Source: an uncultured Opitutia bacterium (GTDB taxonomy: Bacteria; Verrucomicrobiota; Verrucomicrobiia; Opitutales; UBA953). From it: 35,710 nt of DNA. The position numbers and the translations under genes were made by a program. Shown piece by piece: positions 31,325 to 35,710 of the stretch (positions within the stretch are counted from its first letter, which is position 1; each line of letters starts with the position of its first letter). The notes beneath the pieces were generated by a model. It was not told the origin of the DNA. It did no database searches and saw only the letters and a program-made list of their open reading frames with translations. The stretch covers positions 1 to 35,710 of the forward strand of contig CAINMU010000095.1 of the NCBI GenBank assembly GCA_903850885.1. The letters are read 5' to 3'.

Positions 31325-32503
31325 ATGGGTCTGCTTGAAAATCCTTACTTCCTCGCTGCGTTGACCCTCGTAGCCGGACTCATCGTCGCTCGCCGTCGCC
31401 AGCCCGGTGCCTGCCTGTACGTCCGACGTCATGATGGGGACCTCGGAGCGAGCTCCGTCCAACTCCATACGTTGACCAACCAGCACGGCATGAGTGTGAG
31501 CCTGAGCGATTTCGGGGCGACGCTCACTTCCGTCCGCGTCCCCGACGTCCGTGGGGTGATTGGCGAAATCACCCTGGGGCACGACCATCTCCGGGGCTAC
31601 GTGGAGCAAAATTGTTTTCTCGGCAGTTCCGTCGGCCGCTACGCCAATCGAATCGCCGAAGGTAAGTTCAGCATCGACGGGCAAGCGTTCAGCCTGGCAG
31701 CTAATAATAATGGGCAACATCTCCACGGCGGACTCGTCGGATTTGACCGTAAGATTTGGCAGGCCAAAGCGAAACGGACAGACGAGGGCCAGAGCGTAGC
31801 GTTCACCTACGTCAGTCCCGCCGGCGAAGAAGGCTACCCCGGCAAGCTTGAGGCGACGATCACCTATACCCTACTCGACGATCGTAACGAGTTGCAGATT
31901 CAGTTTTCGGCGAGCACCGATGCGCCGACGATCTGTAACCTCACCAACCACGCCTTTTTCAATCTCGCCGGCGAAGGTACCGCCCTGCGCCACCGCATCC
32001 AGATTTTCTCCGAACGCTTTGCGGCGGTAAATCCTTCGCTTATCTCAACAGGCGAACTGCAAAACGTCGAAGGTACGCCGTTTGACTTCCGTTCGCCCCA
32101 TGCGACCGGCGAACGCATCGGTGCCTCGCATATCCAACTCCAACGCGCCCGCGGCTATGATCATTGCTATGACCTGGGTGCCGGACGCCAACTCAAGCTC
32201 GCGGCCCGCGTCAGCGAGCCCAGCTCGGGACGCATCATGGAGTTGCTGACGGACGCGCCGGGATTGCAGTTTTATTCCGGCAACTTCTTGGACGGCACCA
32301 TTCAAGGACGCTGGCCAAGACCGTTTATGTTTCGCGATGGTTTCTGCCTCGAGCCCGGACTCTTTCCGGACTCCCCGAATCAGCCCGCCTTCCACCGCCT
32401 CGGTTATCCGAGCGGTATCCTGCGCCCCGGTGAACAGTACGCGCATAAACTTGTGTTCCGTTTCGGAGTAATGAGGGTGGGGCAGCACCGCGTGCTGCCC
32501 TAG
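31325..32503 (+). CDS. membrane-anchored aldose 1-epimerase (galactose mutarotase)
   Basis: Interconverts alpha and beta anomers of aldoses such as galactose and glucose. The 392-residue product starts with an uncleaved-looking hydrophobic helix (residues about 8-22, YFLAALTLVAGLIVA) followed by RRR, so the catalytic domain may be tethered to the membrane; most GalM proteins lack this. The GalM fold shows GATLTSVRVPD, GRYANRIAEGKF, NNNGQHLHGG, the acid His209 in NLTNHAFFNLAG, FDFRSP, and the catalytic base Glu343 in GFCLEPGLFPDSPN. The natural end is near KLVFRFGV; the last seven residues (386-392) and the TAG stop are encoded by a repeat hairpin. The symporter gene faces it across the repeat region, so a sugar-uptake link is possible. 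Confidence 0.92.
   Translation: MGLLENPYFLAALTLVAGLIVARRRQPGACLYVRRHDGDLGASSVQLHTLTNQHGMSVSLSDFGATLTSVRVPDVRGVIGEITLGHDHLRGYVEQNCFLGSSVGRYANRIAEGKFSIDGQAFSLAANNNGQHLHGGLVGFDRKIWQAKAKRTDEGQSVAFTYVSPAGEEGYPGKLEATITYTLLDDRNELQIQFSASTDAPTICNLTNHAFFNLAGEGTALRHRIQIFSERFAAVNPSLISTGELQNVEGTPFDFRSPHATGERIGASHIQLQRARGYDHCYDLGAGRQLKLAARVSEPSSGRIMELLTDAPGLQFYSGNFLDGTIQGRWPRPFMFRDGFCLEPGLFPDSPNQPAFHRLGYPSGILRPGEQYAHKLVFRFGVMRVGQHRVLP
32480..32503. repeat. single-hairpin repeat, copy B1 (overlaps galM stop)
   Basis: GGGCAGCAC (32480-32488) and GTGCTGCCC (32492-32500) form a perfect 9-bp stem with a 3-nt loop. The same hairpin recurs at 33047-33067 and, with GGTCAGCAC arms, at 32859-32879. The epimerase reading frame runs through it and stops at the TAG just after the right arm. 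Confidence 0.85.
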
Positions 32504-32521
32504 TCGCCTTTGCCTCTTAAA

Positions 32522-32577
32522 GGTAGGGCTGACCACCCAAAGTCAGCCGCGGTTGAGCGAAGGCGCTCAACCCTACC
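32522..32577. repeat. double-hairpin repeat, copy A1
   Basis: A 56-bp element bounded by GGTAGGG and CCCTACC. Inside are two hairpins: GGCTGAC/GTCAGCC, and GGTTGAGCG/CGCTCAACC with an AAGG loop. The outer ends also pair, so the whole can fold as a three-way junction. Similar copies lie at 32790, 35120 and 35661. Confidence 0.88.
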
Positions 32578-32591
32578 CGATACATCACATG

Positions 32592-32745
32592 GTAGGGACA
32601 GGCTTTCGGGTGTCAGGTCCCGGGCCTCAGGTTTCGGGTACGGGTTATCAGGTTCGGGCGCCAGGTTCGGGACCCGTACCCGTACCTGTACCAGAATACC
32701 TGAACCTGGTTCCCGATTGCCGAGACCTGGGACCTGAGAATAGAT
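32592..32745. repeat. degenerate CAGGT/CGGG tract with imperfect inverted repeat
   Basis: Variants of TCAGGTTCGGG recur several times in one orientation (32613-32670), then the complementary pattern (CCCGTACC, CCTGAACC, CCTGGGACCTGAG) appears at 32672-32738. Thus the left half can pair imperfectly with the right half, for example TCAGGTCCCGGG with CCTGGGACCTGA. No coding potential is convincing here. Confidence 0.65.
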
Positions 32746-32754
32746 GCAGCATGA

Positions 32755-32791
32755 GTTGACCGGTTTATCAGTTGACCAGAAATGCAATGGG
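32755..32791. repeat. octamer tract O1 plus ATGCAATGGG block
   Basis: Three 8-nt units (GTTGACCG, GTTTATCA, GTTGACCA) are followed by GAAATGCAATGGG, which joins directly to double-hairpin copy A2. The same architecture recurs at 35308 and 35618. Confidence 0.75.
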
Positions 32792-32845
32792 TAAGGCTGA
32801 CCACCCTTGGTCAGCCGCGGTTGAGCGAAGGCGCTCAACCCTACC
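32790..32845. repeat. double-hairpin repeat, copy A2
   Basis: A 56-bp copy bounded by GGTAAGG and CCCTACC. Hairpins are GGCTGACC/GGTCAGCC (8 bp) and GGTTGAGCG/CGCTCAACC (9 bp). The second hairpin is identical to that in A1; the first differs only in the loop and one stem base. Confidence 0.88.
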
Positions 32846-32857
32846 TAAGATACAGCT

Positions 32858-32885
32858 AGGTCAGCACGCAGTGCTGACCCTACCC
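32858..32885. repeat. single-hairpin repeat, copy B2
   Basis: GGTCAGCAC (32859-32867) pairs with GTGCTGACC (32871-32879) around GCA, then CCTACCC follows. It is the B hairpin with a compensatory change (GC to TC on the left, GC to GA on the right) that keeps pairing. Confidence 0.82.
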
Positions 32886-32889
32886 TTAA

Positions 32890-33041
32890 AGAGAAGGGAC
32901 AGGGCTAGGGTCAGGGACAGGTTTCAACTCTTTGGGGCAGACACAGGAACAGTCGCAGGAAATTTTCCGAAGCTGCCACCCGAAGTTTGTATCTACCTTT
33001 GCACCTTTGCACAGGCCGCAGGCCGATTTGCACTTTTGCAC
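32890..33041. repeat. GGGACAGG tract, TTTTCCGAA block and TTTGCAC octamers
   Basis: Short motifs recur: GGGACAGG and close variants at 32896-32922; CAGGAAATTTTCCGAAG (32956-32972), matched by CAGGAAGTTTTCCGAAC at 35191-35207; and direct octamers CTTTGCAC (32997-33004, 33005-33012), then AGGCCGC/AGGCCGA, then TTTGCAC (33027-33033) and TTTTGCAC (33034-33041). I see no gene here. Confidence 0.6.
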
Positions 33042-33044
33042 AAC

Positions 33045-33072
33045 TAGGGCAGCACGCGGTGCTGCCCCTACC
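33045..33072. repeat. single-hairpin repeat, copy B3
   Basis: GGGCAGCAC (33047-33055), loop GCG, and GTGCTGCCC (33059-33067), followed by CTACC. The stem is identical to B1. Confidence 0.85.
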
Positions 33073-33082
33073 TCGCGCAGAC

Positions 33083-33108
33083 GGATGCGATGTCATCACA
33101 TCCCTACC
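33083..33108. repeat. hairpin after the symporter stop (GGATGCGATG type)
   Basis: GGATGCGATG (33083-33092) pairs with CATCACATCC (33094-33103) with one mismatch, followed by CTACC. The minus-strand symporter stop TAG (33104-33106) lies in the CTACC border. The hairpin directly follows that stop and could help end or stabilise the transcript. Confidence 0.7.
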
Positions 33109-35011
33109 CCCTACTCTTCGCCTCTTCCCTCGCCTGCGAAGCCGTGCTGTCCGCCCAGAGCTGACGGGTGACTTTAAGTAAGGCGTAGCCGCTCACGACC
33201 AAGACGGCCGTGAGAATCCAGGCCATGCGCAACCGCGATGGATCGCCCGAGGCGTAGAGAAAATTACCGATGGCAAAAAGCGCTGACCAGATGACGACAC
33301 AACCCGCGATCCAGCCGACGAAGGCCGCTCCGCTGCGATTCTCGGTCGCGACTTCCACCTCCGTGACTCCCGCTGCTGCCCGTATCGCCTTCCAACCCGG
33401 ACCCGCAGGCTTCACTTTGCGGTAAAAGGAAATCAGGGTGGCCGGATCGGTCTGGGGGCCGACATAAGCGGTGATGAGCCAAGCCAGCGTGGTTATCCCG
33501 ACCTGCACCATCGTCACGGTCGCAAAATCCGCCTTAGGCATCATGAGCGGCACCACTAACGAAGTCACGAGTGACATCACCATGGCCACGATTTCGCACC
33601 AAGCCGAGACCCGCCACCAGAACCAGCGCGCAATATAGATGAGCCCGGTCCCAGCGCCAATCGAAAGCAGGATCTGGAACGCTTGCTGCGCCGATGAAAG
33701 CGTCAAGCTAAGCAAAGCAGCGACAACGTAGAGCAAGACCGTCGAGAGGCGACCCACGTTAACATAGTGCCCCTCCGACCCGTCTTTCTTGATGAAGCGG
33801 CGGTAAAAATCGTGCACCAAATAAGATGACCCCCAATTGAGGTGCGTCAGGATCGTCGAAGAGTTCGCCGCCAAGAGGCCTCCAATCATCAATCCGACGA
33901 AGCCCACCGGGAGGAATTTCAGCATCGCGGGGAAGGCGGAGTCATGGCCGATGAGCGCGGGGTCCGCGTTCGGGAAGGCTGACTTGATCGCCGCAAGGTC
34001 CGGGTAGACGATGATCGAACAAAGCGCGGTGATGATCCAAGGCCAAGGCCGCAAGACGTAGTGAGCGATATTAAAGAAGAGCGTGCCGCCGAGGGAGTCC
34101 TTCTCGGATTTCGAGGCCAGCATACGCTGGGCGATATAGGAACCGCCGCCAGGCTCCGAGCCCGGATACCAGTTCGCCCACCAGCTAATCGCGATCGGCA
34201 TGATAAAAATCATCAGCGCCAATTCCAGCATCGTGAAGTTAGGCAACAGATCGAGGATGGGCTGACCCTTGCCGTCCGAGGCCGACATCACCGGCCTGCC
34301 GGCCGTCGTCACGACCTGCTGCGTCTTGAGCTGGATCACCAACGCCTTCAAGCCGGCCCAGCCGCTGGCCTCGCCCGTGAGACGGCGACCGACTTCCACG
34401 AGGGAGAACCAAGCGGCGGCGAAGACCGCGGTCATCTTGATGAAGAACTGGATCATATCGATGACCAGCACGCCCCAAAGCCCCGAGTGCGCCGCGAAGA
34501 CCACGTTCAGAATGCCGCAGATCACGATCGTCTGCCACGATGGCATCCCGAAAAGGATATTGGCGATTTTACAGGCGGCGAGCGTCACCATCCCCATGAT
34601 GAAACAGTTAAAGAATAACCCGAGGTAGACGGCCCGGAATCCGCGCACCACCGAAGCCTCCTTGCCGGAATAGCGGTGCTCATAAAATTCCAGATCCGTC
34701 ATCACTCCCGAACGGCGCCACAACCGCGCGAAGAAGAAAACCGTCGCGACCCCAGTCAGCACGAAGGCCCACCACTGCCAGTTGCCGGCGACGCCATACT
34801 TGCGCACCTGCTCGGTCACCCAGTTCGGGGTGTCGGACGAGAATGTCGTCGCGACCATCGAGAGACCGGCGAGCCACCAAGGCACCGAGCGGCCGGAGGC
34901 GAAGAACTCGGCAGTGCTGCCGCCCGATCGCTTGGCGAAGAACAACGCAGGGACGAAACAAATCAGAATCGTTGCTGCGACGATTATCCAATCAAGCAGG
35001 GTGATATTCAT
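33104..35011 (-). CDS. sodium:solute symporter (SSS/SGLT family)
   Basis: A 635-residue inner-membrane transporter with about 14 hydrophobic segments, of the LeuT fold. The ATG at 35011 (MNITLLDWIIVAATILI) is preferred over an upstream frame because helix 1 starts at once. Family features: FFASGRSVPWWLAGLSMVATTFSSDTPN near residues 36-63 (helix 1, part of the Na+ and substrate site), a long loop near residues 225-265, and the conserved SSTILTHLNWGSSYLVHDFYRRF segment corresponding to helix 8 with Na2-site serines. The substrate is unknown; sugars are plausible given the facing aldose epimerase, but related PVC transporters are uncharacterised. The last residues (KSRG) and the stop fall in repeat sequence. 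A poor promoter candidate (TATAAG on the minus strand, about 35074-35079) lies upstream. Confidence 0.92.
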   Translation of the reverse strand: MNITLLDWIIVAATILICFVPALFFAKRSGGSTAEFFASGRSVPWWLAGLSMVATTFSSDTPNWVTEQVRKYGVAGNWQWWAFVLTGVATVFFFARLWRRSGVMTDLEFYEHRYSGKEASVVRGFRAVYLGLFFNCFIMGMVTLAACKIANILFGMPSWQTIVICGILNVVFAAHSGLWGVLVIDMIQFFIKMTAVFAAAWFSLVEVGRRLTGEASGWAGLKALVIQLKTQQVVTTAGRPVMSASDGKGQPILDLLPNFTMLELALMIFIMPIAISWWANWYPGSEPGGGSYIAQRMLASKSEKDSLGGTLFFNIAHYVLRPWPWIITALCSIIVYPDLAAIKSAFPNADPALIGHDSAFPAMLKFLPVGFVGLMIGGLLAANSSTILTHLNWGSSYLVHDFYRRFIKKDGSEGHYVNVGRLSTVLLYVVAALLSLTLSSAQQAFQILLSIGAGTGLIYIARWFWWRVSAWCEIVAMVMSLVTSLVVPLMMPKADFATVTMVQVGITTLAWLITAYVGPQTDPATLISFYRKVKPAGPGWKAIRAAAGVTEVEVATENRSGAAFVGWIAGCVVIWSALFAIGNFLYASGDPSRLRMAWILTAVLVVSGYALLKVTRQLWADSTASQAREEAKSRG

Positions 35012-35119
35012 AAACGAACGGGGTAACAATGTTCTCATTCAGTCCCGCTCGGGTAGCAACCGACTTCCCCCGGCTTATATGAGCAGATAAGAGCATTAGT
35101 GCATGAGCCTTCGCATCTA

Positions 35120-35173
35120 GGTAGGGCTGACCGGCCCGGTCAGCCGCGGTTGAGCGGGCCGCTCAACCCTACC
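35120..35173. repeat. double-hairpin repeat, copy A3
   Basis: A 54-bp copy bounded by GGTAGGG and CCCTACC. Loops differ from A1/A2 (GGCCC in the first, GGGCC in the second), while the stems GGCTGACC/GGTCAGCC and GGTTGAGC/GCTCAACC are kept. Stem conservation with loop change argues that the structure matters. Confidence 0.87.
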
Positions 35174-35307
35174 TTAAATTCAAGGGACAGGGGCAGGAAG
35201 TTTTCCGAACCTGATTGCCGAAGCCGATGGCCGAAGGCTGGAACGCCGATACCCGAATGGCCGATGCCCAGTTGGCCGTCACCCGTCACCTGCAATGGCA
35301 GAGACAA
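35174..35307. repeat. GCCGAT/GCCGAA-rich degenerate tract
   Basis: After AAGGGACAGGGGCAGG and the TTTTCCGAA block, the motif GCCGAA or GCCGAT recurs about six times (35217-35270), giving an irregular direct repeat. GAACCTGATTGCCGA here resembles GAACCTGGTTCCCGATTGCCGA in the other repeat region. No gene is evident. Confidence 0.55.
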
Positions 35308-35352
35308 GTTGATCCGTTGATTAGTTGGCCAGTTGGCAAGAAATGCAATGGG
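35308..35352. repeat. octamer tract O2 plus ATGCAATGGG block
   Basis: Four exact 8-nt units: GTTGATCC, GTTGATTA, GTTGGCCA, GTTGGCAA (35308-35339), followed by GAAATGCAATGGG (35340-35352). It joins a different hairpin from the one that follows O1 and O4. Confidence 0.8.
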
Positions 35353-35469
35353 TAGGGGCGCGACGGCGTCGCGTCCGTTCGCAGCGCAAGGCACGATGAG
35401 ACGGGCAACCTATCCCGATCCTACAAAGTCGGTTCGCCTACGGACGCCACGCAGGGGCGCCCCTACCTT
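35351..35469. repeat. GGTAGGGG-bounded element with GCGCGAC hairpin
   Basis: The element starts GGTAGGGG, forms a hairpin from GCGCGAC/GTCGCGT (about 35357-35375), and runs to GGGGCGCCCCTACC (35454-35467), which repeats the inverted border. It is a longer member of the same bordered repeat class with an unrelated interior. Confidence 0.65.
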
Positions 35470-35508
35470 AAAGACAATTAGCCAACAGCCGAAGAAGACC
35501 GGGGGCCA

Positions 35509-35662
35509 GAGAGATACAAAGTTAGTTGATTGGTTGATCAGTTGGCCAGTTGGCCAGGGATACAAACGAGAGGCCCGGAGGCCCAGAGGCTCGGTGGACC
35601 AGAACAATACAACGTTAGTTGATTCGTTGACCAGTGGGCCAGTTGACAAGGTATGCAATGGG
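35509..35662. repeat. tandem pair of octamer tracts O3 and O4
   Basis: Two related units of about 60 bp. O3: GTTGATTG, GTTGATCA, GTTGGCCA, GTTGGCCA (35525-35556). O4: GTTGATTC, GTTGACCA, GTGGGCCA, GTTGACAA (35618-35649), then GGTATGCAATGGG. Each is preceded by a CCAGA...ATACAA...GTTA lead-in. The unit period is exactly 8 in all copies. Confidence 0.78.
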
Positions 35663-35710
35663 TAGGGCTGACCACCCTTGGTCAGCCGCGGTTGAGCGAG
35701 GGCGCTCAAC
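35661..35710. repeat. double-hairpin repeat, copy A4 (cut by window edge)
   Basis: It begins GGTAGGG directly after the O4 ATGCAATGGG block and carries GGCTGACC/GGTCAGCC and GGTTGAGCG with loop AGGG before CGCTCAAC; the window ends before the CCCTACC border. Confidence 0.85.

Follow-up and report, generated by a model that had tools for sequence, protein, structure and literature searches.

Contig C95 of an uncultured Opitutia bacterium (assembly GCA_903850885.1, CAINMU010000095.1), analysed here over its full 35,710 bases and referred to as the window, carries a sodium:solute symporter gene that lies between two arrays of short repeats. The genome comprises 2.34 Mb in 152 contigs and is 96% complete. 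Here we describe the hairpins of the arrays, which are GTAG-tagged repetitive extragenic palindromic (REP) elements, either single or in head-to-head pairs (REP doublets forming hairpins, REPINs, also known as bacterial interspersed mosaic elements, BIMEs), together with a tract of octamers that precedes some of them at a fixed distance, and their occurrence in the rest of the genome and in related genomes.

Organization of the locus

The symporter open reading frame (ORF) (SSF, PF00474) occupies positions 33104-35038 on the minus strand. By its protein, the nearest relatives that bear a name are Verrucomicrobia/Opitutales metagenome genomes with 97% and 96% identity, and the isolate names of these relatives suggest a lake habitat. 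The non-coding flanks amount to about 1.27 kb, with 600 bp up to the ORF of an aldose 1-epimerase and 672 bp to the end of the contig; an earlier note, made from the letters of this DNA, had described about 1.3 kb of modular flanks, and all modules listed there are present. C95 terminates within a repeat, and repeat matches also lie at most about 15 bases from the ends of C17, C142, C55, C69 and C141, as is to be expected if assembly breaks at repeats.

One module is a head-to-head REP pair, termed A/B, with the tags outside. The four copies are located at 32523-32576, 32791-32844, 35121-35172 (with GGCC loops) and 35662-35710; the last one is truncated by the contig end and complete in the relative L095. 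These are the four double hairpins of the earlier note, which further counted three single hairpins: one at 32477-32503 (plus strand, stem GGCAGCAC), one at 32859-32883 (minus strand, stem GGTCAGCAC) and one at 33047-33071 (minus strand, stem GGGCAGCAC). All three exist, and two were omitted, a REP with the stem GGATGTGATG at 33083-33107 on the minus strand, which abuts the stop codon of the symporter, and the second arm of the GCGCGAC pair at 35442-35466. This spaced head-to-head pair covers 35352-35466 with a GGGCGCGAC arm at 35352-35376 (plus strand) and a GGGCGCCCC arm on the minus strand. Variant tags occur at 32477 (GTGG) and 32791 (GTAA). The epimerase ORF obtains its stop codon from the CTAG of the first single hairpin. 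As judged by eye from the aligned sequences, this ORF also ends inside a REP-like hairpin with a CTAG stop in L095, and at an earlier stop in L096.

Four octamer tracts are present on the plus strand, as had been noted: three units at 32754-32777 and four units each at 35307-35338, 35524-35555 and 35617-35648. The tract at 35524-35555 is followed by a further tract, not by a tag. The other three lead into a 13-nt joint (ATGCAATGG in the earlier note), which reads AGAAATGCAATGG at 32778-32790 (ahead of the GTAA tag) and at 35339-35351, and AGGTATGCAATGG at 35649-35661, in each case on the plus strand. Two TTTTCCGAA blocks are found at 32963-32971 and 35201-35209, also on the plus strand. The octamer/joint unit is followed twice by the A hairpin and once by the GCGCGAC hairpin, just as the earlier note had it.

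Further degenerate tracts of short period (GTGCAAAGGTGCAAA, CAGGTCTCGGG, GTGACACGTGGACAAGG and AAACCGGAGACCGG) are found repeatedly in intergenic DNA: in L063, in L061-type stretches and in the window at 32599-32740 and 32995-33045.

REP elements and transposase genes in the genome

Each REP unit has a GTAG tag, followed by a stem that starts with GG and finishes with CC and encloses a short loop. The traits of GTAG REPs are all found here: an unpaired tag beside a stem-loop, a stem of 5-13 bp, a loop of 2-20 nt, high copy number, a mainly intergenic position and a preference for head-to-head dimers. Folded as single-stranded DNA, the double hairpin gives z = -6.6. In the whole genome a 115-base piece of the window is matched 52 times. 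The repeats are no product of chance, and the modules are not limited to this locus, the latter being a point on which the earlier note had made its reading depend. Stem B (GGTTGAGCG) has 47 forward and 45 reverse matches versus none in the reversed control, which corresponds to about 47 sites because the stem is near-palindromic, and the GTAGGGGCRSSAC pattern has 79 sites versus 4 in the control.

REPs and octamers were counted in stretches of the own genome that had been selected for their repeats; genes in the scripted counts follow a simple ORF rule, and shuffles permute two-base blocks. A loose search for a tag plus a hairpin was set aside (232 of 484 tag sites, versus 131 of 556 in shuffled sequence), and only a strict set was counted, with a required stem of 8-12 bp and a loop of 2-8; REPs with less than 45 nt upstream were dropped. 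The strict set comprises 161 REPs, 138 of which are intergenic, while 18% of that sequence lies outside ORFs. Within 5 bp of each other, REPs are paired almost always head-to-head (22, versus one head-to-tail), whereas pairs at most 120 bp apart are divided into 42 head-to-head, 37 head-to-tail and 11 tail-to-tail. Among the nine-letter stem starts 43 kinds were distinguished, with GGTTGAGCG (25), GGCTGACCA (18), GGGCAGCAC (16) and GGGCGCGAC (14) as the most frequent.

A search with the Pfam model Y1_Tnp delivered two genes, both above its cut-off, which agrees with the suggestion of the earlier note that a REP-associated tyrosine transposase (RAYT) should be looked for. RAYT1 (155 aa, C73) scores 86.1 bits with the NCBIfam model REP_Tyr_transpos (cut-off 80), and RAYT2 (166 aa, C149) stays just under this cut-off with 75.8 bits; the two share 46% identity across 140 residues. 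The sole solved relative found for RAYT1 is TnpArep 4er8 (E 2e-7). Each of the two genes is flanked by REPs on either side. RAYT1 is preceded by an A/B pair and a GGTTGACC REP, and its 3' end overlaps with an A REP; RAYT2 is surrounded by GGATGACC, GGGCGTGCG and GGGCGACCG REPs. Judged by their sequence and surroundings, these RAYT-like genes with their flanking REPs are REPtrons, in which an IS200-like HUH/tyrosine transposase gene has REPs at its sides, in the sense of the cited sections of PMC3733652. The arm of the REP directly upstream of RAYT1 (L019 1563-1590), GGTTGACC, is identical, perhaps by chance, to a common variant of the octamers described below.

The octamer leader

The selected sequence, 178 kb in all, contains 56 chains of NGTTGRYY octamers, and its block-shuffled copies contain none. 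Runs of period eight number 18, versus none in the control, and other periods occur 0 to 4 times. By eye the octamers are graded along the tract, from AGTTGAYY over NGTTGAYY and AGTKGGCC to NGTTGRCA, after which the joint AGRRATGCAATGG follows; it is 13 nt long and sits between the NGTTGRYY tract and the GTAG tag. Tract and joint are referred to here as the leader. The chain ends exactly 13 nt ahead of a tag in 23 of the 56 cases, and many of the others run on into another chain. A tandem block at C136:148-275 has a repeat unit of 48 bp.

Viewed from the REPs, an octamer pair is located upstream of 34 of the 161, versus 1.7% for positions drawn at random from these stretches. The majority of these (25 of 34) share one phase, with the pair ending 5, 13, 21, 29 or 37 nt ahead of the tag, and the 34 REPs span 17 of the 43 nine-letter stem starts. 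In a wider set of 83 octamer-type ends, which leaves out the loci L095-L174 and duplicate contexts and is enriched by the fetching of ends found in the genus pattern search, 65 lead into a tag.

The leader is also polar. Of 47 merged octamer blocks, 26 are preceded by a gene (5') and followed by a REP (3') and one has the reverse arrangement, while seven have REPs and two have genes on both sides and 11 reach a contig or stretch end; the block midpoint lies within an ORF in five of the 47. The gene 5' of the leader is on the same strand in 18 cases and on the opposite strand in 15. Because the polarity runs from gene to REP whatever the strand of the gene, the leader belongs with the REP and not with the gene. 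Leaders flank REP clusters on both sides and face inwards in C11, C62, C136, C46 and C57.

Two functions considered for the tracts were rejected: that of folding elements, as the tracts do not fold as single-stranded DNA (z = -0.3, -0.9 and -1.6), and that of signals linked to transcription, as the strand of the leader is independent of that of the gene. The leader as an empty target was likewise set aside, since among the 18 of the 83 octamer-type ends without a canonical tag, several of which lie before degenerate tags, an empty site and the loss of a REP look the same.

Distribution among genomes

The panel consists of 57 genomes, many of them incomplete, with 37 from the genus and 20 from other families. 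With a 185-bp tract query (E 1e-5), matches were obtained in 27 of the 57 genomes, all of them among the 37 of the genus, and in 0 of the 20 of other families. The combination of octamer end, joint and tag is present in 15 of the 57, every one in the genus, and absent from the reversed control. On these comparisons the octamer leader is an addition restricted to the genus. The earlier note was also right in its impression that the octamer component is unusual for REPs. Y1_Tnp (E 1e-3) was detected in 19 of the 37 genus genomes. Carriage by viruses was rejected, as viral_contigs holds no exact match to joint plus tag.

Turnover between close relatives

The epimerase gene adjoins the symporter gene at 19 of 57 loci (L095-L151), with gaps of 26 to 741 bp between alignment ends and a strict REP in 12 of the 19. 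The earlier note had proposed a comparison with sister genomes: the module content of the locus does differ between them, although L095 has retained the flank to the right of the symporter. More generally, gaps were compared between orthologous ORFs with at least 85% mean nucleotide identity; gaps shorter than 60 bp on both sides, longer than 4 kb, non-collinear or without hits in both flanking ORFs were dropped. In the ten gaps with REPs or octamers a median of 31% of the own sequence is recovered in the gap of the relative, at a flanking identity of 90-97%, versus 99% in the four gaps without modules. In this small sample, gaps with modules mostly differ between relatives of 90-97% flanking identity, with exceptions.

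The borders of the exchanged segments comprise one clean exchange from GTAG to CTAC (C17) and two partial cases (C62 and C42). At C17:4476-4529 an A/B pair in the own genome corresponds to a GCGCCAC/GCGCGAC pair in G001; the alignment is good until GTAGGG, good again from CCCTACCCATTGCATTTCT over about four octamers, and then poor to near the next gene. In the comparison of C62 with G025 the REP pair differs, the joint is retained and the inner octamers are absent. C42 and G010 have the first REP and the spacer in common, and the second arm and the sequence past CTAC differ.

Larger segments are affected as well. The blocks C17:5853-9744 and C17:10213-13900 are in opposite relative orientation in C73 of G001 (L064 versus L249), and the first of them (3.9 kb) is bounded in C17 by inverted arrays of 169-177 bp with 90% identity. 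The difference could be a real inversion or a misassembly of either genome. Surface-polysaccharide genes (L069, L070, L237, L238, L245 and L248) are separated by mosaics, and their order differs between G007/G027 and G010/G025: the cytidylyltransferase gene adjoins the gene of a SIS-domain protein in G007 and G027 and that of a UDP-glucose/GDP-mannose dehydrogenase in G010 and G025, and the own assembly is broken there. A restriction of the mosaics to polysaccharide genes was considered and dropped; C11, C42 and C62 hold such genes, but C126 has genes for pyruvate kinase and exonuclease VII among its tracts.

Origin of the arrays

From the sequence comparisons we read the arrays as REPINs of the RAYT type plus a leader that would border the mobile unit from outside, with turnover both by transposition and by recombination. 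The earlier note had pictured discrete cassettes as in REP/BIME systems; this is supported for the REPs and REPINs, as products of either mobilisation or recombination, and does not hold for the octamer tract, which is no free cassette, given its fixed spacing, phase and polarity before the tag. The exchangeable unit would be the REPIN, from GTAG to CTAC. TnpAREP is reported to cut at CT, or in one system at CT and CA, on the 5' and the 3' side of the REP, and GTAG is reported to help in the choice of the site (PMC8266576). Of the 127 leaderless REPs in the genome studied, 80 have a CT or CA that starts or lies within -8 to -4 of the tag, an indirect sign of such cutting; five-base windows farther from the tag on the 5' side reach 40%. 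Among the 34 REPs with a leader, 62% have CA at -6/-5. The RAYT may thus cut a few nucleotides 5' of GTAG, at the CA that most joints have at -6/-5. A cut near this position would leave the octamers outside the mobile unit, with the leader as a recurrent docking flank, which fits both the REPIN exchange next to a kept joint and the presence of leaders before many REP families. Recombination among the repeats would then shuffle leaders, REPINs and neighbouring genes further. As a whole, the account of intergenic mosaics of GTAG REPs and REPINs with several stem families and resident RAYT-like transposases, part of them with a genus-specific octamer leader outside the exchangeable REPIN and shuffled further by recombination, is in our estimate about evenly poised between right and wrong. 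A narrower proposal makes leader and joint a tandem-repeat docking address that does not depend on the REP family and that the genome keeps apart from the mobile unit; REPINs of various families would be inserted and exchanged there, and the gaps would act as interchangeable sockets. We consider this proposal unlikely.

Several observations weigh against the account. No transposition event was seen in the genomes compared. The right flank of the symporter (35039-35682) is identical to L095 at 638 of 644 positions, versus 1795 of 1908 in the symporter gene, which suggests an array that may have been recently shared or converted. Y1_Tnp is present in 7 of the 15 genus genomes with the joint-plus-tag pattern and in 12 of the 22 without it, many of the genomes being incomplete; the two are not associated, and nothing here supports a leader that depends on a RAYT in the same genome. 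Octamers stand upstream of only 34 of the 161 REPs, and nine of those 34 are out of phase; the p-values overstate independence, as the copies are related, and the stretches were selected for repeats. A canonical tag is missing at the 18 octamer-type ends mentioned above, and two chains in C126 stop at a tag with no REP stem after it. Among the ten module-bearing gaps, the one of C77 is fully conserved in G001, and for three of the ten the comparison is with a G025 gap that contains runs of N.

Recombination alone, in which the mosaics arise mainly as dispersed repeats recombine by homology and convert each other, be it inside one genome or across lineages, and in which RAYT activity was needed only long ago, would account for the conserved right flank, for the 3.9-kb block of C17 that is flipped relative to G001 with inverted arrays of 177 bp at its C17 ends, for the lack of association between joint pattern and Y1_Tnp among genomes and for the difference of entire gaps between relatives. 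The exchange in C17 exactly from GTAG to CTAC and the constant distance of 13 nt to the tag in REPs of many families point instead to a cut near the tag, even though recombination over short homologies could mimic this, and recombination as the only process seems somewhat unlikely to us. A longer non-autonomous element, in which leader, joint and REP travel as one, has lower standing and is improbable: the linkage of leader and tag at fixed spacing and phase, the 65 of 83 ends that lead into a tag and the inward-facing leaders on both sides of some REP clusters would follow from it, but the REPIN was swapped in C17 while joint and octamers were kept, the joint was also kept in C62 next to a different pair, 127 of the 161 REPs are without octamers, and leaders precede many stem families.

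Formation of the octamers on site, by stalling and slippage of replication at the base of the REP hairpins, would be in line with tracts that face the REP from either side and with the REP arm near RAYT1 that equals an octamer variant. This origin is very unlikely, however, as the same octamers and the same joint reappear next to unrelated REPs and throughout the genus, which favours common descent, and as the joint is kept while inner octamers change. The mostly intergenic position of the modules, and the discussion of REPs as RNA elements in passages of PMC3733652, could speak for regulatory or transcript-end elements kept for a function of the RNA; but the tracts are non-folding and oriented without regard to the gene strand, the window has no Rfam match at the gathering score and the content varies among relatives, so that we regard such a function as scarcely credible.

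Relation to known repeat systems

The REP/REPIN/RAYT part is of an already known kind, in a phylum for which GTAG REPs are on record, with families listed for Opitutus terrae in the consulted text of PMC3733652. With the REPtrons of that text the arrays share the GTAG tag, a perfect stem of 8-9 bp around a short loop, head-to-head pairing at a distance of 1-2 bp, a large number of mostly intergenic copies and REPs around the transposase gene; the likeness is one of anatomy. The genus-specific octamer leader and the 13-nt joint before some tags, of which that text shows no counterpart, set the arrays apart. In the REPINs of Pseudomonas fluorescens (PMC3116915) and in BIMEs, inverted REP pairs are the likely replicating unit, as they may be here, and ordered clusters with repeated flanks are described; the repeated flanks of P. 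fluorescens stand in tandem clusters, whereas here one dispersed, polar type of leader stands before many REP families. The Neisserial intergenic mosaic elements (NIMEs; parts of PMC9778887) likewise combine dispersed palindromes that alternate with other repeats in intergenic mosaics tied to rearrangements. Their palindromes, dRS3 or ATTCCC(N)8GGGAAT, belong to the CGTC type, reported without a dedicated transposase in the sections of PMC3733652 cited above, unlike the GTAG tags, other stems and RAYT genes described here, where no search was aimed at dRS3.

The octamer leader with its fixed joint, phase and polarity appears to be new. In the open-licence papers searched, in part, no leader-like signal 5' of a GTAG tag or guide was found, and a search of such papers for octanucleotide repeats in bacterial intergenic DNA, like one for REPs named together with opitut- bacteria, found none.

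The short tandemly repeated repetitive (STRR) heptamers of cyanobacteria resemble the octamer tracts as degenerate short-period tandem repeats that are intergenic and dispersed within a lineage. They differ from the leader in their period of seven, and to our knowledge they have no fixed link to REPs.

The spread of REPs and their placement by the transposase are described as poorly understood in PMC8266576. With REPs of many stems behind one joint at one spacing, and a REPIN exchanged at the tag between close relatives, it becomes possible to test how the target is chosen and where the mobile unit ends. As gaps vary beside genes of 90-97% identity, those between surface-polysaccharide genes included, the genus is a good place to watch intergenic turnover.

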